IMG/VR virus record: IMGVR_UViG_3300042923_001813
Coordinates: 1 to 25,612 of that record
Direction: 5' to 3' (one strand)
DNA: 25,612 nucleotides
Origin: a virus
Shown here: one piece after another, positions 1 to 22,681 of the stretch
How positions within the stretch are numbered: the first letter of the stretch is position 1
How the letters are laid out: each line of letters begins with the position of its first letter
Notes under the pieces: generated by a model
What the model was told of the DNA's origin: nothing
Seen by the model: the letters and a program-made list of their open reading frames with translations, nothing else
Database searches by the model: none
Translations under genes and position numbers: made by a program

Positions 1-1263
1 ATGGCGCTGACCGACCGAGCTTGCAAACAGGCGAAAGGCCAGGAGAAGGCCTACAAGCTGGCGGATGCCTTCGGCCTGCACCTCTATGTGACGCCGAACG
101 GATACCGCAGCTGGCGGTGGAAGTATCGATTCGCCGGCAAGGAGAAGCAACTGACCTTCGGGCCGTATCCGGACGTCAGCCTGGCCGAGGCTCGCGAGCA
201 GCGCGAGGCAGCCGCCCGGCAGCTGCGTTCGGGCTTGGATCCCGCGATCGAGAAGAAGCGCCAGACCGCGGTGCGCTCGCTACAAGCCGACGCCACCTTC
301 AAGACGATCGCCGAGGACTGGATCGCCAGCCAAACGGCGCTTTGGTCGAAACGGCATGCCGCGCTGGTGAAGGCCAGCATGGAACGGGACGTCTATCCCA
401 AGATCGGGAAGCTGCCGATCGACGTGATCACCACGCCGATCGTGATGTCGGTGCTTCGGCCGATCGAACAGCGCGGGGCGATAGAGACGGCGCACCGAAC
501 CAGGCAGCGGATCTCGGAGGTGTTTGCGCGAGCGATCGGCAGCGGCTTGGCGACGACGGATCCTTCCGCCGTTGCGCGCCGTGCCCTGGCGCCGGTGCGC
601 AAGGGCAAGTTCCCGGCGGTTCGGACGGTGAAGGCGGCGCAATCGGTGCTGGCGGACGTGGAGGCCAAGCCGGCGCATCCGATGACGAAGCTGGCGTCGC
701 GCCTGCTGGCTCTGACGGCTGTGCGCGCCGGCGTCCTGCGTTTGGCCGAGCCAGCGGAATTCGAGAGGCTGGATGGTCCGGAGCCGATCTGGCGGATCCC
801 TGCGGCCAAGATGAAGCTCGTTGTCGAGCGCAAGGAGGACGCGGCCTTCGAATTCATCGTGCCGCTTTCCAGGCAGGCGGTGGAAACGATCGAGGTGGCG
901 ATCGCGCTGTCCGGGGGCGCGCCCCTCATCTTCCGGAGTGTGCGGCACCCGCGTCGGCCGATCTCGGACAGCACGCTGAGCAAGGCTTATCGCGACGCCG
1001 GCTATTCCGGCATTCACGTGCCGCACGGCTGGCGGTCGACCTTCTCCACGGTGATGAACGAACTGGCCGGCGCCGAGAATCGCGTTGGCGATCGCGCGAT
1101 CATCGATCTCATGCTGGCACACGTGCCTGCCGGCGTGGAGGCGAGCTACAATCGCGCTGGATACATGCCGCGCCGGCGCGAGCTGGCGCAGGAGTGGGCG
1201 GATCTGCTCACCGCCACGCTGCCGCACCCCGGCACCTTGATCGAGGGGCCTCGGCGGGGCTGA
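1..1263 (+). CDS. int: P4-type tyrosine recombinase/integrase (first copy)
   Basis: This is a site-specific tyrosine recombinase of the P4-integrase type, 420 aa, close to family length. The N-terminal arm-binding domain (about residues 1-90, with GLHLYV and the GxYPxVSLAEAR-like block) is the DUF4102-type region. A SAM-like core-binding domain follows (about 100-185), then the catalytic domain. Candidate catalytic residues are R242 (TAVRAG), H342 and R345 in HGWR, H374 and Tyr383 in SYNRAG, so all visible key residues are present. The window opens exactly at its ATG, so its promoter and ribosome site cannot be seen. A winged-helix gene follows 25 bases downstream on the same strand. It is clearly related to the second integrase at 2769-3977 but diverged, so it probably serves a different element. 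Family assignment is firm; the cognate element and target are unknown. Confidence 0.93.
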   Translation: MALTDRACKQAKGQEKAYKLADAFGLHLYVTPNGYRSWRWKYRFAGKEKQLTFGPYPDVSLAEAREQREAAARQLRSGLDPAIEKKRQTAVRSLQADATFKTIAEDWIASQTALWSKRHAALVKASMERDVYPKIGKLPIDVITTPIVMSVLRPIEQRGAIETAHRTRQRISEVFARAIGSGLATTDPSAVARRALAPVRKGKFPAVRTVKAAQSVLADVEAKPAHPMTKLASRLLALTAVRAGVLRLAEPAEFERLDGPEPIWRIPAAKMKLVVERKEDAAFEFIVPLSRQAVETIEVAIALSGGAPLIFRSVRHPRRPISDSTLSKAYRDAGYSGIHVPHGWRSTFSTVMNELAGAENRVGDRAIIDLMLAHVPAGVEASYNRAGYMPRRRELAQEWADLLTATLPHPGTLIEGPRRG

Positions 1264-2585: not shown

Positions 2586-2780
2586 ATGACTGATGCCCCC
2601 GCCTCGGAGGACAATGACCCGCCCGACTGCGATGGCATCGGGCATGCGTGGCGGATCCTGCCCGCCGAGGGGCATGTCCAGTACGCGGTGGCGCGCTGCT
2701 GCGGCATCCGCGCCGTCTCGCGGTTCGGCGGTCCCTGGACGCGGGTCGATGATGACGAACCGCCGGCGTCAGCCAGCTAG
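2586..2780 (+). CDS. small hypothetical protein with Cys/His residues
   Basis: A 64-aa frame begins at the ATG at 2586, MTDAPASEDN onward, and contains a CDGIGHAW...ARCCGIRAV region in which Cys, His and a Cys pair could bind a metal. The sequence reads like a real protein (acidic ends, balanced core). No Shine-Dalgarno sequence precedes the ATG, and its last 12 bases overlap the stop region of the convergent integrase gene. Function unknown; it may be a shadow frame, so confidence is moderate to low. Confidence 0.42.
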   Translation: MTDAPASEDNDPPDCDGIGHAWRILPAEGHVQYAVARCCGIRAVSRFGGPWTRVDDDEPPASAS

Positions 2781-3977
2781 CGCTGCGCCCCAGGCGTCGA
2801 AGATCCGGCGACGTCGATCGAGCTGCTGCGATCGGTTGTACGCGCCTTCGACCTTCGCCGCGGATCCGTCCTCGCTCTTCAGCGTGTGACCGAGCGCCTG
2901 GTCGATAGCGCCGCGCTCGAGCGGCATCGTCTCGTTCATGATCGTCGAGAAGGTGGCGCGCCAGCCGTGCGGCACATGGCGCCCCGCGAACGACGTGCGC
3001 GCATAGAGCGAGCCGATCGCCGCCTCGCCAAGTGGACCAGTTTGGCCGGTGCCACGGAAAACTAGTCCACCCTCCGCATGGGCATCGAAGCGCTGCAGCG
3101 CCCGCGCCTGGCGCAGCACCGACACGGCCGCCGGCGACAGCGGCACGAGGTGGTCGTGCGACGCATCGCCCTTCTTCGCCGCCGCCAGCTTCATCCGTGC
3201 CGCCGGCACGCGCCAGATCGGCGCCGCGCCGTCGAGATCCTCGATCTCGCTCCACTGCGCGCCGCGCACGGCCGCCCACCGCATCGCGGTCAGCGCCAGA
3301 AACGTCGACGCCAGCTTCGCGCCGCGCGATGCCTCGAGGCGCGCAACCTCGGCGAGCAGCTGGCGCGCATCGGCGATCGTCGTCACCGCGGCGTGGTGCC
3401 GCACGGCCGCAGGCTTCTTCAGGCCGCGGCCGACCTTCTCTGCCGGATCGGCCGAGCACCAGCCCTCGCCGATCGCGAGTTCGAATACGGCCGAGATCCG
3501 CTGGCGCAGCCGGCGGGCGGTCTCCCGGGCGCCTCGTCGCTCGACTGCGCGCAGCAGCTCGAGCACGTCGGCCGGCGCGATCGCGTCCAGCGGCTCGGCG
3601 CCGATCGCCGGGAAGACGTCGCGCTCGAGGCTGACCAGGACGTCGGCCGCGTGAACGGCCGTCCAGCTTTCCGCCTGGACGGCATGCCAGGCGCGCGCCG
3701 CCGCTTCGAACGTCTCAACGCGGGACGATCGCGCGCGGGGATCCTCGCCGCGCGCCAGCTGGGCGCGGGCGGCGTCGGCCCGGGCCCGGGCGGCGACCAG
3801 GTCAACCTCCGGATAGCTGCCGAGCGTCAGCAGCTGCTCCTTGCCGCCGTAGCGGAAGCGCCAGCGGAAGCTCTTCAGCCCGGTCGGCGCAACGTAGAGG
3901 TGCAGCCCGGCCCCGTCGGGGAGCTTATAGGCGGCCGCGCGCGGCCGTGCGGCTTTCACCGCGGCGTTGGTAAGCAT
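2769..3977 (-). CDS. int: P4-type tyrosine recombinase/integrase (second copy)
   Basis: This 402-aa tyrosine recombinase has the same architecture as the first integrase: DUF4102-type arm-binding region (about residues 1-85, GAGLHLYVAP), core-binding domain (about 90-175) and catalytic domain. Candidate active-site residues are R233 (TAMRWA), H337 and R340 in HGWR, H364 and Y380 in AYNRS; the set is complete. The frame stays open upstream to 4103, but the ATG at 3977 is preferred because GAGG lies about 7 bases upstream and the protein then begins with the usual MLTNxAVKAARP start. It is divergent from the small gene at 4042. Its 3' end faces the 21-bp repeat at 2520-2540, so it probably mobilises the minus-strand element to its right. 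No excisionase gene was recognised. Confidence 0.94.
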   Translation of the reverse strand: MLTNAAVKAARPRAAAYKLPDGAGLHLYVAPTGLKSFRWRFRYGGKEQLLTLGSYPEVDLVAARARADAARAQLARGEDPRARSSRVETFEAAARAWHAVQAESWTAVHAADVLVSLERDVFPAIGAEPLDAIAPADVLELLRAVERRGARETARRLRQRISAVFELAIGEGWCSADPAEKVGRGLKKPAAVRHHAAVTTIADARQLLAEVARLEASRGAKLASTFLALTAMRWAAVRGAQWSEIEDLDGAAPIWRVPAARMKLAAAKKGDASHDHLVPLSPAAVSVLRQARALQRFDAHAEGGLVFRGTGQTGPLGEAAIGSLYARTSFAGRHVPHGWRATFSTIMNETMPLERGAIDQALGHTLKSEDGSAAKVEGAYNRSQQLDRRRRIFDAWGAALAG

Positions 3978-4041
3978 GGAAGCCTCGTGTAAGTCGAGAG
4001 GATAGCCGAGCGTCTTCGACCGCTCAGCGGAGGGGGACCGA

Positions 4042-4290
4042 ATGACGTTTTTCAAAGAGGCAACCGCGGCGGCTGAGCGGTCGCCATTTCCTGTACACAG
4101 CACATGCTTGTGCTGCGGGGAGAAAGCTGACGGACCGACTGTCGCTTGGGATCTGCAACTACCTGAAACGGAGGTGCCGATGACGCGCGTGCTCTTTCAT
4201 CGCGATTGCGCGTTCAACATGGCTCAAGGGATGATCTGCGACGCGTGGCCAAATCGATACCCGCAACGAGCCAAAGAGCGAGAGGTCTGA
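4042..4290 (+). CDS. small CxxC/HxxC putative zinc-binding protein
   Basis: An 82-aa protein with an excellent ribosome site (GGAGGGGG ending five bases before the ATG at 4042). It contains CLCCGEKADGPTVAWD (CxCC, residues about 22-25) and RVLFHRDCA (HRDC, about 53-56), so two Cys-containing clusters could bind one metal ion. It is the only plus-strand gene between the second integrase and the Dam gene and is divergent from the integrase across 64 bases that must hold both promoters. A stem-loop follows the stop. Function is not known to me; small zinc-ribbon-like proteins of this kind are common in phage and island DNA. Existence as a gene is well supported by the ribosome site. Confidence 0.72.
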   Translation: MTFFKEATAAAERSPFPVHSTCLCCGEKADGPTVAWDLQLPETEVPMTRVLFHRDCAFNMAQGMICDAWPNRYPQRAKEREV

Positions 4291-15050: not shown

Positions 15051-15764
15051 TCACGAGTCGGTTTTCTCAATTTCCAGCGCGACAGCGGAAAAGTTGTCTT
15101 TGGGGCCGGCGGATTCGACGCGCCGCTCGACATCAGCAAGAAATGAGGCGAGATCCACATTGGCCAGCGACGCGTTCAAAATCGCGCCCCTCTTCACGGT
15201 TTGGTGAACGCCGTCACTCATCAGTAAAAGCCGGTCACCAGGCTGAATAAAGGCCTCGGCTTCGTAGACTTCGAACTCGGAGCTAGGCGTGAGGGCCGAG
15301 AGGAGAACATTTCTCCGATGGTAGCGCCGCGCCTGCTTGTCGGTCAGAACGCCCTTGCGAACGAGTTCGGCTACTTCCGTTTGGTCTCGCGTGAGGTGGT
15401 TTAATCCGGCACCTCGAAGATGGTAGATCCTGGTATCGCCCACGTGTGCGACCCGCGCCACTTTGCCGGCGATTGCGACTACCGACAGCGTCGTTCCCAT
15501 CCTCGAGAATTCCGGATTATCTGCAGAGACCCGCTCCAGCTGCTCCGCGACGGTTCCGAAGATACTGCTCAGTAGCTCCGGCTCCCCCGAGAAGCGCGCG
15601 GCCACATCGACAGCGATCTGGGCCGCTTCGGCGCCACCCGGAGCGCCCCCGATCCCGTCAGCGATACCAGCTATGATCGTTCGGTCATTCGCTTTGGTAG
15701 GCAACAAAATGCGATCTTGATTGGTCTGTCTCGGACCAATCTGACAGAACGAGGCATGCTTCAC
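15051..15764 (-). CDS. PP2C-family Ser/Thr protein phosphatase
   Basis: A 237-aa metal-dependent phosphatase that would remove phosphate from Ser or Thr of target proteins. All PP2C blocks are visible: TNQD (residues 14-17), GIADGIGG with metal-binding D36 (33-40), MGTTLSV (about 88-94), VGDTRIYHLR (about 107-116), LLLMSDGVH with D184, and KDNFSAV with D223. Length matches the short bacterial PrpC/Stp type. There is no membrane segment. The start lies 5 bases after the kinase stop, so the two are a coupled pair; the phosphatase probably reverses the kinase. A membrane protein gene follows. This is a reliable family call; the substrate is unknown. Confidence 0.93.
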   Translation of the reverse strand: MKHASFCQIGPRQTNQDRILLPTKANDRTIIAGIADGIGGAPGGAEAAQIAVDVAARFSGEPELLSSIFGTVAEQLERVSADNPEFSRMGTTLSVVAIAGKVARVAHVGDTRIYHLRGAGLNHLTRDQTEVAELVRKGVLTDKQARRYHRRNVLLSALTPSSEFEVYEAEAFIQPGDRLLLMSDGVHQTVKRGAILNASLANVDLASFLADVERRVESAGPKDNFSAVALEIEKTDS

Positions 15765-15769
15765 GGTCG

Positions 15770-17080
15770 TTACGGCACCTGGGCTTGCAGGACTGGATGC
15801 AGCACATCTTTGCTGACGCTTATCGATCGCTGCATACGTCCGAACTCATATGGGAAGTCAATGCCCAAGACGCTCATCTCGACCAAGATACGTTCGGCGA
15901 GCTGACTACTGATTGGCCCCACCATCTGGACGAATTTGCGTTCGACGAACCAGCGATTGTGCGAGAGGCCAAGCCGCAACATCGCGACGGCGATATCCGC
16001 CTGCAGCCCGACCTCGCCTAAATCGTAAAAGAGCTGCGCCTTCGTCGCGAGAACATCGCAGTAATCGAAGTTGAACGACATGGTCCGGCAGTGGTCGGCG
16101 AACATCTTTCCAAGGGCAGCCAGAAGGTCTGGGTCCTCTTCCGAAAGCTGCTGTATGTGCTCCAGACGCAAAGTCCTAAAAACCGTGTAGGTGGGCTGGC
16201 TCGTGGATGAATTTGCATCGAGCAGGTCGAAGATATCGTCCCAGTTCTCCGGACTTGGGAGAACCGCCTCGTCTGCGAGCAGCAAAACCGCTTTCTCTTC
16301 CTCGCCAGACTCAAATGCGAAGGTGAAGCCGTTGAGGGCCTCGAAAAGTGCCTCACGTAGTTGAGCGACATCCTTATATCTGCGGTGTGCGTTGCGCTTT
16401 GTGCACTTCTCGATGACCGGGCCGATCGCTCCGGGTCCAGTGAGTTCCTCGTGAGGCAACCGCTTCGGATTGACGGCGAAGATGTCGTGCAGCAGTGCGC
16501 CGAAGGAGTAGATATCCGATCGAGCAGTCGCCCTTTTGAAGTTGATAGCGCACTCAGGCGCTTGGTACGCAGGCGTCCCCCCGCCCATTCCGCTCGGCGT
16601 AAGAGTAGAAGATGCTTCCTCTCCAACAGCCATGAGACCGAAGTCCGACAGCGCATAGAACGGCTGTCCGGTCCCATCACGAAATCGAAGCACGTTTCCC
16701 GGCTTTAGATCTCTGTGGCAGTACCCGCGGGTGTGTATTTCTTCGAGGCCCGCGAGTATATCGAACAACGCCTTCAAAGGCGCCCCTCCTAACGTTCGAT
16801 CGACGCTCATCTCGTCAAGCAAGCTGCACTCAGCCATTGGCATTATAAACCAGGGCGGATTTGCATTCAGGTCGTGATCGAAGATGTGCACGACGTTAGG
16901 ATGGGTAATTGCTCTTTGGTAGCGCACTTCGCGCTCAAACCGGGGTTTCATCGCGGCAACGTCGATGTGAGCCGGGACTTCAAGTGTCTTCCGAGCAAAA
17001 ACCTGTCCAGCGCCGTCGACAACTCGTTCGACCACACCGAAACCGCCGCGCCCAAGAATCTCGATCGCATCGTAAGCCAT
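15770..17080 (-). CDS. Hanks-type Ser/Thr protein kinase
   Basis: A 436-aa soluble eukaryotic-like kinase. The catalytic domain spans about residues 3-255: P-loop GRGGFGVVERV (10-20), ATP-binding K31, probable helix-C E51, HRDLKPGN with catalytic D124, DFG at 146-148, and GTPAYQAPE at the end of the activation segment (168-176). The remaining about 175 residues are helical and acidic (EEDPDLLAALGKMF, GLQADIAVAMLRLGLS) and may be a TPR-like or other sensor region; there is no transmembrane helix or PASTA repeat. The ATG at 17080 has a G-rich site just upstream and fits family length better than the ATG at 17101. It is first of a tight kinase-phosphatase pair followed by a membrane protein. Substrate unknown. 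An anti-phage or signalling role inside the prophage is inference. Confidence 0.94.
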   Translation of the reverse strand: MAYDAIEILGRGGFGVVERVVDGAGQVFARKTLEVPAHIDVAAMKPRFEREVRYQRAITHPNVVHIFDHDLNANPPWFIMPMAECSLLDEMSVDRTLGGAPLKALFDILAGLEEIHTRGYCHRDLKPGNVLRFRDGTGQPFYALSDFGLMAVGEEASSTLTPSGMGGGTPAYQAPECAINFKRATARSDIYSFGALLHDIFAVNPKRLPHEELTGPGAIGPVIEKCTKRNAHRRYKDVAQLREALFEALNGFTFAFESGEEEKAVLLLADEAVLPSPENWDDIFDLLDANSSTSQPTYTVFRTLRLEHIQQLSEEDPDLLAALGKMFADHCRTMSFNFDYCDVLATKAQLFYDLGEVGLQADIAVAMLRLGLSHNRWFVERKFVQMVGPISSQLAERILVEMSVLGIDFPYEFGRMQRSISVSKDVLHPVLQAQVP

Positions 17081-17209
17081 ACACCCCCCCGTGATATTCA
17101 TTTCGTTTTGATGGCGGAGGTACCCTCCGCCGTGCCGATCAGAGCGGCGCGGAAGGCCTTAGGGTAGAAGCAGCCGTCGCGGCGTCCGTACCCGCCCTAT
17201 ACCCGCACC

Positions 17210-17467
17210 TCAGCCCGCGTGAGGAATAAATCTGACGATCGCAACGATCAGAACGGCAAGCACAGTCACCATCAAAGCCAGCACCGATGTTACCCAAGCC
17301 TTTGAGGGGAGCTGATCGAGATCGTCGCGAAGGATTTTAAGCCTTGCGTCTACGGCTTCCATCGCGCTCGCGCGGCGATCCTCGACGATCATAGGACCGG
17401 ATGTAGCAGAATGGTCCTGGACCGAACGCCGGAGCGCTTCCAACCTATTAATGTCGGCGTCATCCAC
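17210..17467 (-). CDS. small tail-anchored membrane protein
   Basis: An 85-aa protein with a charged, coiled N-terminal part (DADINRLEALRRSVQDHSAT, then AMEAVDARLKILRDDLDQL) and a single C-terminal membrane segment (VTSVLALMVTVLAVLIVAIV, residues about 60-80). The start is a GTG at 17467 without a clear ribosome site, 31 bases after the AbiTii-domain gene stop, so it may be translated by coupling. It is the last gene of the lipoprotein-nuclease-AbiTii operon. Anchored coiled proteins of this kind can be partners of an abortive-infection effector, but no family is recognised. Confidence 0.65.
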   Translation of the reverse strand: MDDADINRLEALRRSVQDHSATSGPMIVEDRRASAMEAVDARLKILRDDLDQLPSKAWVTSVLALMVTVLAVLIVAIVRFIPHAG

Positions 17468-17498
17468 ATCGCGATGATGCGCGATGTGGCCCGTAGCA

Positions 17499-18365
17499 TC
17501 AACCTTTGAGCAAGGCGGTTAGCGCCGGCAGGAATGGTGTCAGGACCGTCATGTGATCGGCCGCGGCGGTGATCAAGCGCTGGTACGCTGACAACCGCTC
17601 TACCGCCGTCGTCGCAGCACGCATCGCTTCCGCTTCTCGAACAATCGCCTGTTGATCGTGTTCAGACGTTACTTGCGCCTTCACGGCTTGCGCGATTTGC
17701 CCGAAGACTGCGTGTTCACCACCTAGATTGGTCGACTGCACGATCGATGAGCCTGCGCCACTCGCGTCCCCCGCGTTGAAGCTGCCGTGGAACGTGCCGA
17801 TGTGAATCGATGCGCTTGCGGCCTTCTGCCGCTCGGCCGGCGAGAAAACGAGCCCTTCACCCGTGATTCCCGCTCGCTCAAGCTCGATCGCCCAGTCGAG
17901 AACCATATTCCGGACCCGATCAATTATCCCGGTCAAGCTGCCATGCGGGATGATTTGCCTGACCTGAACCAAGTCCCAGTCAAAGGCCTCGTTCATGCGC
18001 TGCACGACGCCGACGTCCATCATCATGGAAATCTGGCCTTCGCCTGTGGAGCGAGCAAGGATCGATTCGTAATTTCCGATCGGCTCACGAAGCTCAACCT
18101 CACGAAGCATCGCATCCATTTTTTCGTCACCGATGACGATCGGCATGGCGTTGCGGTACCGGTCCATACCTTCAAGCGTGGAGCCGATACGCCGGTATTT
18201 GGGGAGGTCATCTCCCCTGTAACCATTGAGCTCACCCTCCACCCACTCGAGTGCGTCGTTCAGGCCCAGCTTGACTGCAGCAAGCTTGGTCTTCCGCAAC
18301 AAGGTGCTCACCGGCACATCAGCGGAAAGTGCATCCGCCTGCAGCTGATCAACCAAACCGGACAT
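17499..18365 (-). CDS. AbiTii-domain abortive-infection-type protein
   Basis: A 288-aa protein. The N-terminal half has the AbiTii pattern: LVDQLQADALSADVPVSTLLRKTK (residues about 4-27), LGLNDALEWVEGELNGYRGDD (about 34-54, with the family's ELNGY) and PKYRRIGSTLEG. This domain was named from lactococcal AbiT, which aborts phage development. The C-terminal part (SIHIGTFHGSFNAGDASGAG) is a Gly-rich segment followed by a helical end, seen in other AbiTii proteins where it may be an oligomerisation or sensing region. The ATG at 18365 overlaps the TAA of the nuclease gene (TAATG) and has AAGGGG five bases upstream. The domain call is from pattern recognition, not a search; the mechanism of the family is poorly known. 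Confidence 0.8.
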   Translation of the reverse strand: MSGLVDQLQADALSADVPVSTLLRKTKLAAVKLGLNDALEWVEGELNGYRGDDLPKYRRIGSTLEGMDRYRNAMPIVIGDEKMDAMLREVELREPIGNYESILARSTGEGQISMMMDVGVVQRMNEAFDWDLVQVRQIIPHGSLTGIIDRVRNMVLDWAIELERAGITGEGLVFSPAERQKAASASIHIGTFHGSFNAGDASGAGSSIVQSTNLGGEHAVFGQIAQAVKAQVTSEHDQQAIVREAEAMRAATTAVERLSAYQRLITAAADHMTVLTPFLPALTALLKG

Positions 18366-18763
18366 TACCACCCCTTCGCTTCGCCGGCGCGCACCAGCGC
18401 CTCGCCCAGGTCACCGCCCTGCCTGGCGCAGATCGCCAGCGTGCGGCCGTAGCGATCGGGGCCGCGCGATCGGCAGCGCAGCTTGGGGCCGCGCACCAGG
18501 ACGTGCCCCGATCGCGCGCGGCCGCGCGGGCCGCCGAGCAGCTGGACCAGCGTGTCGCGCGCCTTGATGCCGCTCGCCTTGGGGCACAGGTGGCCGCGCC
18601 GGCAGGTGCCGTCGATCTCGCGCGCGGCGATCCCTGCCAGCCGGATCCGCCGCCGCTCCCCGTACCAGATCGGTCCGTCACCGCCCCACACCCGTACCGG
18701 CGTGCAGGCGAACGCCTTGCTAGCCGGCACGACCGCAGCGGCAGCGAGGGCGAGCGCGATCAT
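18365..18763 (-). CDS. secreted thermonuclease (SNase-family) protein
   Basis: A 132-aa protein with an N-terminal signal peptide (MIALALAAAAVVPASKAFAC, cleavage near residue 19). The rest fits a small staphylococcal-nuclease-like fold: RIRLAGIAAREIDGTCR (about 39-55, where R, D/E contribute to catalysis in the family), then DRYGRTLAICARQGGDLGEALVRAGEA (about 102-128), a conserved SNase block. A periplasmic or outer nuclease is inferred. Its ATG overlaps the lipoprotein stop and its stop overlaps the AbiTii start, so it is in the same operon. SNase-like proteins are common in sphingomonad prophages and may scavenge or degrade DNA during superinfection; that role is not shown. Confidence 0.82.
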   Translation of the reverse strand: MIALALAAAAVVPASKAFACTPVRVWGGDGPIWYGERRRIRLAGIAAREIDGTCRRGHLCPKASGIKARDTLVQLLGGPRGRARSGHVLVRGPKLRCRSRGPDRYGRTLAICARQGGDLGEALVRAGEAKGW

Positions 18764-19125
18764 GGGTGTGCCGCCGTGTCGGTTATCTCGTCGAGATTGT
18801 CCGGTTCGATCCGATCGAGCGCAACTCGGTCTTCATCCCTGTACGGCGCGTCCCCACCGTACCGGCTGCGATCGAGTTGAGCGTTCAAGCAGGTGACGTC
18901 GGCGAACAGCTTCGCGTCAGAATAGCCTTTGGCGTCTTTTGCTTCGAGGTAAGCATCCGCAACTTTGCGTTCAGCCGCGCAAACTTCTCGGCTGCTCACC
19001 CCGGGTTGAGCCTTGACGATCTCTAGCCGAGCCTTCGCGTCGCCGACTGGATCATCGCACCCGCTGACAAGAAGCAGAGGAATAATACCCCCGAACTGAG
19101 AAACTCTTGATTGCCGCTTGACCAT
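18760..19125 (-). CDS. small lipoprotein at the head of the nuclease-AbiTii operon
   Basis: A 121-aa protein starting at the ATG at 19125. It has a short signal sequence ending in the lipobox LLVSGC (Cys about residue 18), so it should be lipid-anchored. The mature part (DPVGDAKARLEIVKAQPGVS, then KVADAYLEAKDAKGYSDAKL, TCLNAQLDRSRYGG) is helical with two Cys residues that could form a disulphide. The ATGA overlap with the nuclease gene shows operon coupling. A GGGGG stretch lies seven bases before the ATG. I recognise the general type in sphingomonad mobile DNA, not a function. It may be an outer-membrane partner of the nuclease or a superinfection-exclusion protein; both are speculation. Confidence 0.72.
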   Translation of the reverse strand: MVKRQSRVSQFGGIIPLLLVSGCDDPVGDAKARLEIVKAQPGVSSREVCAAERKVADAYLEAKDAKGYSDAKLFADVTCLNAQLDRSRYGGDAPYRDEDRVALDRIEPDNLDEITDTAAHP

Positions 19126-19199: not shown

Positions 19200-19373
19200 A
19201 TGAAAAAGTTCGTGTACCGGTCGACGCCGGGCTGCCGCGAAGCGTGCGAACCGTGCATCGCGAAGTGCGCCGTCATGATGACGGCGCAGCAACTGGAGTG
19301 GGCCGCCGGCGGCACGACCGGGGGCGGCAAGAGCGAGTGCCGCAATCAGCGGCGGCCTCCGTCACGCGAGTGA
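19200..19373 (+). CDS. 57-aa Cys-motif microprotein (first copy)
   Basis: A short gene with GGAGG four bases before the ATG at 19200. It encodes MKKFVYRSTPGCREACEPCI followed by AKCAVMMTAQQLEWAAG and a basic Gly-rich tail. Four cysteines have the pattern C-x3-C-x2-C-x3-C (C12, C16, C19, C23), fit for binding a metal or for disulphides. The first 34 residues align without gaps to the ORF beginning at 19901 (20 of 34 identical), so the two are duplicates. It is on the plus strand in a minus-strand region and divergent from the lipoprotein gene at 18760-19125. Family and function are not known to me. Confidence 0.68.
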   Translation: MKKFVYRSTPGCREACEPCIAKCAVMMTAQQLEWAAGGTTGGGKSECRNQRRPPSRE

Positions 19374-19398
19374 CGGGCCATTATAGCTTCCTCTTTCA

Positions 19399-19887
19399 TC
19401 AGTAATCGCCCTCGGCCATCTGGCGCCGCGCTTCGCGCATCCCGCGTCCGCCGATCATCAACTGAATATCAACTGGGATGCCCTGCTCGAGCTGGTCGCA
19501 GATGACAGTGTCCGGACCACCCTGCGGCGGATCGCACGGGCAATAATCCTTGAAGCACATCTCCACTGGGGATGACGACTTGCCTGCGAGCGGCTCAGTC
19601 AAAGCGCTAGGCTCGCTTTTTTGCACGTTGGATCTGAGCTCATCCCGCAGAACTGCTACCTCAGCCTTCTCTGCCGCGAGTTCGAGACTCAACCGCTTCG
19701 TGGTCGCCTGTTCGTCTCTCAGCGCTTTTTCGAGATCGGCATTTCGTTGCTGCAGAGCGACCGGTTCGCACGCCACAACGCCGAAGCTAAGAATGGCGGC
19801 GAAACAGGCCCACCTGATACGAGCGCTTGAGACGTTTGAGCCATAAGTTCTTGGTAAACGAAGCTTAGTCGCGTCCCGAAACAACAT
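19399..19887 (-). CDS. coiled-coil lipoprotein
   Basis: A 162-aa protein from the ATG at 19887. A hydrophobic stretch (RWACFAAILSFGVVACE, about residues 25-41) ends in a lipobox-like VVAC, giving a lipid-anchored protein. It is followed by a strong coiled coil (LQQRNADLEKALRDEQATTK, then LSLELAAEKAEVAVLRDEL) and a Cys-containing C-terminus (CFKDYCPCDPPQGG). Start is uncertain: no ribosome site precedes the ATG, and the divergent ORF starts only 13 bases away. The layout is spanin-like, but it is far from the lysis genes, so a spanin role is not supported. Between two copies of the Cys-motif microprotein. Confidence 0.6.
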   Translation of the reverse strand: MLFRDATKLRLPRTYGSNVSSARIRWACFAAILSFGVVACEPVALQQRNADLEKALRDEQATTKRLSLELAAEKAEVAVLRDELRSNVQKSEPSALTEPLAGKSSSPVEMCFKDYCPCDPPQGGPDTVICDQLEQGIPVDIQLMIGGRGMREARRQMAEGDY

Positions 19888-19900
19888 TGGGAGCGGGGGT

Positions 19901-20200
19901 ATGGATGAGGTAGTGTACCGGTCGACGGCGGGGTGCCGGGAGGGCTGCACGCCTTGCCTGGTGCGATGCGCGGTGCTCAACGCGATGCAGGAACTGGAGT
20001 GGGAGGCGATGGGCTTGGCTTGGGAGCAGCCGGCGTCGCCTGAACGGGCAGCAGATCTCGCAGCTGCGACAGGCCGGTGGGCAGCCGCCGCGCAAGATGC
20101 CGCGCTTGTTCGGCCCGCGTCATCCCGTCAAGGCCACTCAGCAGGCCCTCGAACATTTGTGCCAGCGCAGGTTCGGGAGGAAGCGCGATCTGCATCGTGA
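19901..20200 (+). CDS. Cys-motif microprotein, second copy, 3' part antisense to repressor
   Basis: The first 34 codons (MDEVVYRSTAGCREGCTPCL and VRCAVLNAMQELEW) duplicate the microprotein at 19200-19373, including the C-x3-C-x2-C-x3-C motif. Beyond codon about 40 the frame runs antisense through the 3' part of the repressor gene and has shadow-like composition (Ala/Arg-rich), so the true product may be shorter or the copy may be a truncated relic. A GGGGG site precedes the ATG at 19901. The frame overlaps the convergent repressor by 224 bases. Real as a homology; uncertain as a functional gene. Confidence 0.42.
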   Translation: MDEVVYRSTAGCREGCTPCLVRCAVLNAMQELEWEAMGLAWEQPASPERAADLAAATGRWAAAAQDAALVRPASSRQGHSAGPRTFVPAQVREEARSAS

Positions 20201-20447
20201 CGTATTGAATAGCCGGCACTGGCGGGGGCAGCGGGGCGCCCTCGTCGGGGTCGTCCGTCTCGCCAGTCAGATATGCTGGAGTGGTATGTAGCTCGCGAGC
20301 GATCTTGTGGAGATGTGTCGATGACCGTTGCCCGCCGTTCACCAGACCATTGATGGTGCTCTGATCGACGCCGACGCGTCTCGCCAGCCACGCCTGCGAG
20401 CGCTTTTGCTGAGCAAGAAGATCGCGGATCCGATCGCCGACCGTCAT
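19977..20447 (-). CDS. XRE-family CI-like repressor without protease domain
   Basis: A 156-aa lysogeny-repressor candidate. Residues about 1-60 are an XRE/HTH-3 domain (TVGDRIRDLLAQQKRSQAWL, ARRVGVDQSTINGLVNGGQR, then ARELHTTPAYLTGETDDPDE, a repressor-typical ending). The C-terminal half has no S24 peptidase motif; it is helical, then Pro/Ser-rich (APKPSPSPPTPVPASR), possibly low-complexity. The ATG at 20447 is preferred over a GTG six bases upstream. No clear ribosome site precedes it. It faces the Cro-like gene across an 86-base region with an 18-bp operator. Because it lacks a RecA-cleavable domain, induction is likely through another mechanism. Repressor role is inferred from HTH and divergent arrangement. 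Confidence 0.82.
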   Translation of the reverse strand: MTVGDRIRDLLAQQKRSQAWLARRVGVDQSTINGLVNGGQRSSTHLHKIARELHTTPAYLTGETDDPDEGAPLPPPVPAIQYVTMQIALPPEPALAQMFEGLLSGLDGMTRAEQARHLARRLPTGLSQLRDLLPVQATPAAPKPSPSPPTPVPASR

Positions 20448-20456
20448 TGGCACAAG

Positions 20457-20532: not shown

Positions 20533-20793
20533 ATGGGCATCGAATCTCGTCTCGACTCGCCGTTAGCCGAAGCCGTCCGGAAGGTAGGTTCCCAGTCCGC
20601 GTTCGGCCGCCTCGTCGGCAAGAGCCAAACCTCGGTGTTTGAGGCGCTGCGCGACAATCGCCCACTCTGGCCTGAGGCTGTCTTGAAGGTGGAGAAGGTA
20701 ACCGGCATCAGCCGCCACCGCCTACGCCCCGACGTGTACGGCCCCGAGCCAGCCGCCAGCGCACATGCAACAGCTGCAGGCGCAGCAGCATGA
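20533..20793 (+). CDS. Cro/YdaS-like transcriptional regulator
   Basis: An 86-aa small DNA-binding protein of the YdaS/Cro type. Residues about 10-62 carry the HTH (EAVRKVGSQSAFGRLVGKSQ, TSVFEALRDNRPLWPEAVLK, VEKVTGISRHRLRPDVYG), where the RHRLRPDVYG end is characteristic. The C-terminal Ala-rich tail is variable. No Shine-Dalgarno sequence precedes the ATG at 20533, and no other start in frame is plausible, so the transcript may be leaderless. It is divergent from the repressor and its TGA overlaps the next ATG (ATGA). Expected role: early switch to lytic growth. Confidence 0.82.
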   Translation: MGIESRLDSPLAEAVRKVGSQSAFGRLVGKSQTSVFEALRDNRPLWPEAVLKVEKVTGISRHRLRPDVYGPEPAASAHATAAGAAA

Positions 20794-22252: not shown

Positions 22253-22681
22253 ATGATCATGAACGTAATCGAGCGCCCCACCTGGACCCGCACCGTCGAC
22301 TTCACGCCGGGCCTGTACCTGAAGGTCCGCCGCCGCACGACGCGGCTTGAGCTGGCCGATGTGGCCGCGCGGATCGGCACGATCCCGCATGTGCCCGAAC
22401 AGGACCGCGTCGAGTGGCTCGAGCGCATCGAGGCGGATCTCGTCCCCGTTTCCACGAACACGATCGACCAGCTCGCCCGCGTTTTCCGGCTGGACCTGCA
22501 GGTACTTGCTCAATTGGCGGCAATCGCACGCGGGGAGCGCGACCCGGCGCTGACACCGCGGATCTGCCGCATCTGCGCCTGCAGCTGGCGCTTGCCGTGC
22601 GTGCGCGGGCACGAAGCCTGCGGGTGGGTTGACGGGCAGGATCTCTGCACCGCGTGCGACCACGCGGACGCAGCGGCATGA
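22253..22681 (+). CDS. HTH protein with C-terminal Cys-rich zinc-finger-like domain
   Basis: A 142-aa protein. The first about 95 residues carry an XRE-like fold (YLKVRRRTTRLELADVAARI, then VSTNTIDQLARVFRLDLQVL). The C-terminal block (CRICACSWRLPCVRGHEACG and WVDGQDLCTAC, residues 105-135) has seven Cys, C105, C108, C110, C116, C123, C132 and C135, probably binding one or two zinc ions; this tail is typical of phage proteins of Caulobacter- and sphingomonad-like hosts. It likely binds DNA or RNA as a regulator. A 118-base gap without a gene separates it from the upstream CII-like gene. Its stop overlaps the next ATG. Confidence 0.68.
   Translation: MIMNVIERPTWTRTVDFTPGLYLKVRRRTTRLELADVAARIGTIPHVPEQDRVEWLERIEADLVPVSTNTIDQLARVFRLDLQVLAQLAAIARGERDPALTPRICRICACSWRLPCVRGHEACGWVDGQDLCTACDHADAAA

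Follow-up and report, generated by a model that had tools for sequence, protein, structure and literature searches.

Genes and features of the locus

The window, meaning the whole stretch of DNA that was analysed, is an entire IMG/VR virus record of 25.6 kb. It carries integrases, a lysozyme gene and a tail-fibre gene, together with a cargo region of PP2C phosphatase, Ser/Thr kinase, AbiTii and SNase-like genes and two lipoprotein genes. The tyrosine integrases are two members of the same family in opposite orientation (1-1263, plus strand; 2769-4103, minus strand). Positions 15051-18763 of the minus strand encode the PP2C phosphatase, the Ser/Thr kinase, an AbiTii-domain protein (PADLOC AbiTii, 4e-45) and the SNase-like protein. 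This cargo is a defence-like island, with tail and lysis genes on one side and the immunity region on the other. Positions 22253-22681 (plus strand) encode an HTH protein whose C-terminal segment is rich in cysteines; it is kept in related phages.

The initial annotation described two copies of a small four-cysteine protein next to the immunity region, the second running antisense into the repressor gene. Both open reading frames are found where it placed them (Table 1). Their N-termini match without a gap over 37 residues with 21 identities, and C12, C16, C19 and C23 are all kept. This likeness is beyond chance: copy 1 as query against the 25.6-kb record recovers copy 2 with an E-value of 2e-13. 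The antisense arrangement also stands, and it is this conserved overlap with the repressor gene, given only passing mention at first, that is the main feature of the locus. The idea of a duplicated family of 57-residue microproteins had to be given up. The full gene encodes about 95-100 residues, and copy 1 is a truncated remnant.

Table 1. Features of the C4/repressor region and the adjoining cargo genes in the window
Feature	Coordinates	Strand	Length	Remarks
Lipoprotein 1 (cargo gene)	18760..19125	-		Divergent from truncated C4; unrelated to lipoprotein 2; lipobox LVSGC, from sequence
Leader between lipoprotein 1 and truncated C4	19120..19199			Common to locus L004, whose divergent cargo gene is unrelated
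Truncated C4 (copy 1)	19200..19373	+	57 aa	Start AGGAGGTAAG-ATG; good ribosome site; residues 1-37 homologous (to ~19313), remaining 20 residues unrelated
Probable recombination joint, truncated C4 / lipoprotein 2 3′ flank	19314..19398			End of homology; inferred
Lipoprotein 2 (coiled-coil, cargo gene)	19399..19888	-		Between both C4 copies; lipobox GVVAC, from sequence; start codon uncertain
Complete C4 (copy 2)	19901..20200	+	99 aa	Residues 1-26 (Cx3Cx2Cx3C cluster) outside overlap; 27-99 antisense to repressor gene
C4/repressor antisense overlap	19977..20200		224 nt	C4 position 1 = repressor position 1; C4 position 2 = repressor wobble
HTH (Cro/C1-type) repressor	19977..20453	-	158 aa	HTH 5-63; two-helix C-terminal domain 94-134; disordered tail 135-158
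YdaS/Cro-like gene	20533..20793	+		Divergent from repressor (immunity switch)

The C4 family

The complete gene belongs to an unnamed and unannotated family, here called C4, that combines a Cx3Cx2Cx3C cluster with a predicted helical hairpin. The four cysteines and the alanine that follows them are invariant in all 39 aligned members. The first relatives, from scans of IMG/VR and of genomes, were found in Sphingomonas phages and prophages; a second IMG/VR scan yielded 37 further contigs and a third yielded one, these later scans using subfamily alignments. According to the initial annotation, a lack of homologues and of expression would have pointed to chance conservation of a decayed repeat. 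Homologues were looked for and found at more than 60 loci, essentially all of them in phages, prophages and chromosomes of Sphingomonadaceae. They include L003, on a fragment of a phage found in human faeces, and L145, on a Sphingomonas plasmid. One candidate from a Simkaniaceae MAG (L014) was rejected as a chance match over few residues.

Of 398 genomes sampled from the family to which S. mucosissima belongs, at least 17 carry the gene, and at least 25 with a wider profile; these frequencies are lower bounds, about a dozen candidates having been scored per genome. S. mucosissima DSM 17494 is one carrier of the locus. Among 385 sampled genomes of the class, none beyond the query genome carried it.

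Searches of both copies and the 39 members against Pfam, PHROGs, NCBIfam and the PDB gave nothing above cut-off. The four-cysteine family next to the immunity region is real and, as first supposed, unassigned. Stray weak matches to phrog_2570 (three members), Molybdop_Fe4S4, DUF6510 and RIC were judged to be chance. None of the 39 members matched the antirepressor families Ant, Bro-N and P22_AR_N in Pfam, PHROGs or NCBIfam. A search mainly of the open-access literature found no publication describing the family. The sole annotated relative examined is plasmid NZ_CP155752.1, whose gene table, known to be incomplete, lists the HTH regulator WP_347092934.1 and no C4 gene.

Antisense overlap with regulator genes

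In 67 of the 73 loci examined (a few being the same prophage seen twice), C4 lies tail to tail and antisense with an HTH regulator gene, which in phage loci is the immunity repressor. The shared DNA covers the last three quarters of C4 and the 3′ end of the regulator gene; it spans 179-248 nt, the length of a long antisense overlapping pair, and codon position 1 always faces position 1. The six exceptions are two rearranged loci (L132, L133), three short, free-standing C4 genes (L101, L139, L141) and one doubtful case (L098).

Most of the paired regulators have a common C-terminal block, LPSEAALAxMFExLL...LARRLPxGL, and pairing persists with regulators that end differently (the divergent L099, L100 and L102-L106). 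The N-terminal domain behaves differently from this block. HTH identity falls below 30% in 29% of the pairs whose C4 identity is 60% or more, and between L003 and L145 the DNA of C4 and the repressor C-terminus is 98.7% identical while the HTHs are unrelated. These comparisons of sequence show the repressor HTH to be freely exchanged, C4 and the repressor C-terminal domain staying together. L003 and L145 look like a recent immunity swap with its breakpoint in the repressor linker.

Small 2.1-Mb genomes (L065-L068) carry a regulator with the conserved C-terminal block and no antisense C4. Their regulator stops just past that block and lacks the Pro/Arg-rich tail of most overlapped regulators, which suggests that the overlap produced the tail as a by-product. 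Regulator/C4 pairs at L036-L041 and L044 lie in chromosomes near Band_7, NfeD, PilZ, TauE and inositol monophosphatase genes. No obvious phage genes surround them, and they are possibly a domesticated immunity pair.

The free-standing genes encode 61-71 residues and have no antisense partner. In L141, C4 lies on the same strand between an S24-like gene, whose end it overlaps by 8 nt, and a P22_AR_N antirepressor gene, 30 nt before which it stops. In L101 it adjoins a divergent Bro-N antirepressor gene and in L139 it is near tail genes, so that Ant-type antirepressor genes stand beside two of the three. Together with the chromosomal pairs, these genes show that C4 does not depend on a single phage repressor as its partner.

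Predicted structures and their facing along the overlap

The AlphaFold2 model of C4 contains a helical hairpin (residues 20-41 and 47-70, pLDDT >90); its cysteine region is loose and of low confidence and its tail is disordered. A structure search returned generic helical matches only, none with E <0.001. The repressor is modelled as an HTH, a two-helix C-terminal domain (94-105, 113-134) and disorder from 135 onwards. In the window, C4 residue i lies opposite repressor residue 186-i. The repressor tail is thereby opposite C4 28-51, repressor helix 113-134 opposite the second C4 helix, and the C4 tail opposite repressor residues 94-112. The disordered tail of either protein is opposite a folded part of the other.

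Selection in both reading frames

The antisense phase used by C4 and the repressor is one of those that stay open more easily in GC-rich DNA, where an open antisense frame by itself would prove little. In C4 residues 1-26, differences per codon position amount to 0.15 at position 2 and 0.50 at the wobble position. Residues 27-51 keep this C4 pattern (0.29 and 0.48), the repressor tail being free; in residues 52-73 both frames change little (0.29 and 0.16), and residues 74-92 have the pattern of the repressor (0.45 and 0.21). Resampling of disjoint pairs reproduces this picture, and a column bootstrap agrees with it except that the interval for 52-73 just touches zero.

An overlap-aware estimate of dN/dS in the style of OLGenie (PMC7531306) gave 0.50 (0.37-0.64) for C4 (dNN/dNS) and 0.47 (0.36-0.59) for the repressor (dNN/dSN) over the entire overlap, that is, purifying selection on both frames of the long antisense pair. 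Within residues 27-51, C4 stands at 0.40 and the repressor tail is neutral at 0.94, and within 74-92 the repressor stands at 0.24 and C4 at 0.76 (0.47-1.32), an interval that includes 1. Constraint, as estimated from the alignments, is thus shown to pass from C4 to the repressor along the overlap.

Of 52 non-redundant members, 33 have a start codon with a Shine-Dalgarno-like site ahead of the cysteine cluster, compared with a background of 10% at random positions; 24 of these 33 have it at the same distance. This conserved start and ribosome site points indirectly to translation. On the codon-position and dN/dS tests, and on the conserved part outside the overlap, C4 is judged to be a real gene for a protein in temperate sphingomonad phages.

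How much of the protein is functional is a separate matter. It is rather probable that only the N-terminal 50-70 residues form a working microprotein and that the C-terminal part is a by-product of repressor coding, a reading compatible with the role in the immunity switch proposed below. Such a division would suit the free-standing genes, which are just 61-71 codons long, and residues 74-92, with their repressor-like codon pattern and a C4 ratio whose interval reaches past neutrality. The segment 52-73, helical in both predicted proteins and little changed at any position, argues against this division.

Origin of the truncated copy

The homology of copy 1 to C4 stops at about 19313-19316, in codon 38-39. 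It resembles the gene of a second phage, L004, more than it does copy 2, with 76% identity over 198 nt including the upstream leader, compared with 71% over 91 nt. The match to L004 begins at the start of the divergent cargo gene, continues across the leader and breaks off near codon 39. A simple, fresh tandem duplication is rejected as the origin, since L004 is closer than copy 2, and copy 1 is therefore read as a recombination remnant.

Cargo genes divergent from C4 vary among phages, and the two window lipoproteins have no relatives among the C4 loci collected. Recombination of two phages with different cargo would give the order lipoprotein 1, truncated C4, lipoprotein 2, complete C4/repressor, and is the simplest account that the sequences suggest. 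Exchange of a cargo (moron) gene at the C4 boundary would have left the copy at 19200 as its remnant. Copy 1 is probably non-functional as a complete protein, because the window has its complete pair on the right, and helix 2 is missing from the left-hand remnant.

Duplication took another form in the phages L132 and L133, where the overlap itself is duplicated with cargo genes in between. On the left, an intact C4 faces what remains of a broken repressor gene; on the right, an intact repressor faces a C4 without its cysteines. Reading frames at both loci show that an intact C4 was retained after duplication uncoupled it from the intact repressor.

Possible functions of C4

Four ligand-type residues at fixed spacing, as in Cys4 metal-binding proteins, make C4 a putative metal-binding protein; the cysteines would hold a single metal ion or Fe-S cluster where the helical hairpin has its tip. 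Of the roles first suggested, a metal-binding regulator or anti-repressor is still the leading reading. That of a toxin-like peptide lost ground, with no match to a toxin family, as known from toxin-antitoxin systems, in Pfam, PHROGs or NCBIfam.

C4 may be an antirepressor or a repressor accessory in the lysis-lysogeny switch, a tentative proposal whose chances come close to even. It is drawn from the near-constant pairing with phage repressors, from the block of C4 and repressor C-terminus that is kept despite HTH swaps, and from the free-standing genes that adjoin antirepressors. Its location in or next to the immunity region, both in the window and in phage loci generally, is that of an antirepressor. 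The protein would engage the conserved helical C-terminal domain of the repressor and not its operator-specific HTH, and transcription of C4 antisense through the repressor gene would add a second antagonism at the RNA level. Co-conservation of the two genes alone is not evidence of interaction, as shared DNA enforces their linkage. The upstream regions of C4 share operator-like sequence with the repressor/cro regions no more than mismatched pairs do (mean longest match 8.13 versus 8.10), and there is therefore no sign of direct control of C4 by the repressor.

The gene could instead be real and unrelated in function to the repressor, serving metal handling, superinfection exclusion or some other moron-like purpose while trapped by the overlap. 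This reading is somewhat improbable, with these points in its favour: the overlap by itself accounts for the linkage, C4 borders the variable cargo region, copies without an antisense partner exist, that of L139 near tail genes, and the chromosomal pairs sit among ordinary genes, those of the Band_7 to inositol monophosphatase set. Against mere trapping, two of the three free-standing copies adjoin antirepressor genes, and the association with HTH regulators holds even where the C-terminal domain of the regulator is unrelated.

An effect carried mainly by RNA, in which antisense transcription started at the C4 promoter reduces the mRNA of the repressor and the peptide matters less, appears unlikely. 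Such a transcript, running convergently, would be antisense to roughly half the length of the window's repressor gene, and lambda OOP with cII offers a possible precedent; selection at the amino-acid level is nevertheless strong on C4 residues 1-51, also outside the overlap, the cysteines are invariant, and L132 and L133 keep an intact C4 apart from the intact repressor. That both open reading frames are chance or decaying and functionless is highly improbable: the lack of database matches and the truncation of copy 1 fit such a reading, and for copy 1, taken as a whole working unit, it is likely, but family-wide conservation outside the overlap, codon periodicity and the conserved start and ribosome site oppose it, and for copy 2 the codon statistics have already refuted it.

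Comparison with known systems and implications

In phage lambda, OOP is a non-coding antisense RNA opposite cII. Like OOP, the C4 transcript would converge on a phage regulator gene and cover its 3′ end; the difference is that C4 codes for protein.

The functionality of long prokaryotic antisense overlapping genes is debated (PMC7457138). Small protein genes that lie antisense to another gene and were missed by annotation pipelines, as C4 was, include laoB of E. coli O157:H7 (PMC5810103), ano, and three more in EDL933 (PMC5960689, PMC9927249). The closest parallel is laoB, which also faces a regulator gene, in its case CadC-like. However, laoB is young and confined to Escherichia/Shigella, whereas C4 occurs in many phages and genomes of one bacterial family, is embedded only in part and is under purifying selection in each of the two frames.

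SOS-independent small-protein prophage antirepressors have been demonstrated to inactivate cI (Silpe et al. 2023, PMC10432266). C4 resembles these smORFs in its small size, lack of recognisable domains and place in a phage regulatory region, and the proposed likeness extends to action on the phage's own repressor. The smORFs differ in being divergent from the transcription factor that activates them and in having no homologues. The Ant-type antirepressors (Bro-N, P22_AR_N) share the immunity-region setting and adjoin free-standing C4 genes in L101 and L141, but they have no sequence relation to C4, which is much smaller.

Antisense overlaps described so far are mostly young and narrow; that of C4 is spread through a bacterial family, and selection on both frames can be measured. 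Nature has also provided experiments in which the genes are separated (L132, L133) or one stands alone, as in the regulator-only genomes and the free-standing C4 genes. Pairs with swapped HTHs mark the points of recombination between immunity cassettes. As the cysteine part lies outside the repressor gene, a clean inactivation of C4 is possible. C4 is a hidden gene within the lysis-lysogeny switch. The broader proposal, a family-wide class of phage immunity switch whose repressor gene shares its DNA, on opposite strands, with the gene for a protein antagonist of that repressor, the antagonist being invisible to standard annotation, is possible if on balance doubtful. If it is true, the antagonist and the repressor C-terminal domain would move as one block, and the operator-reading domain would be swapped at will.
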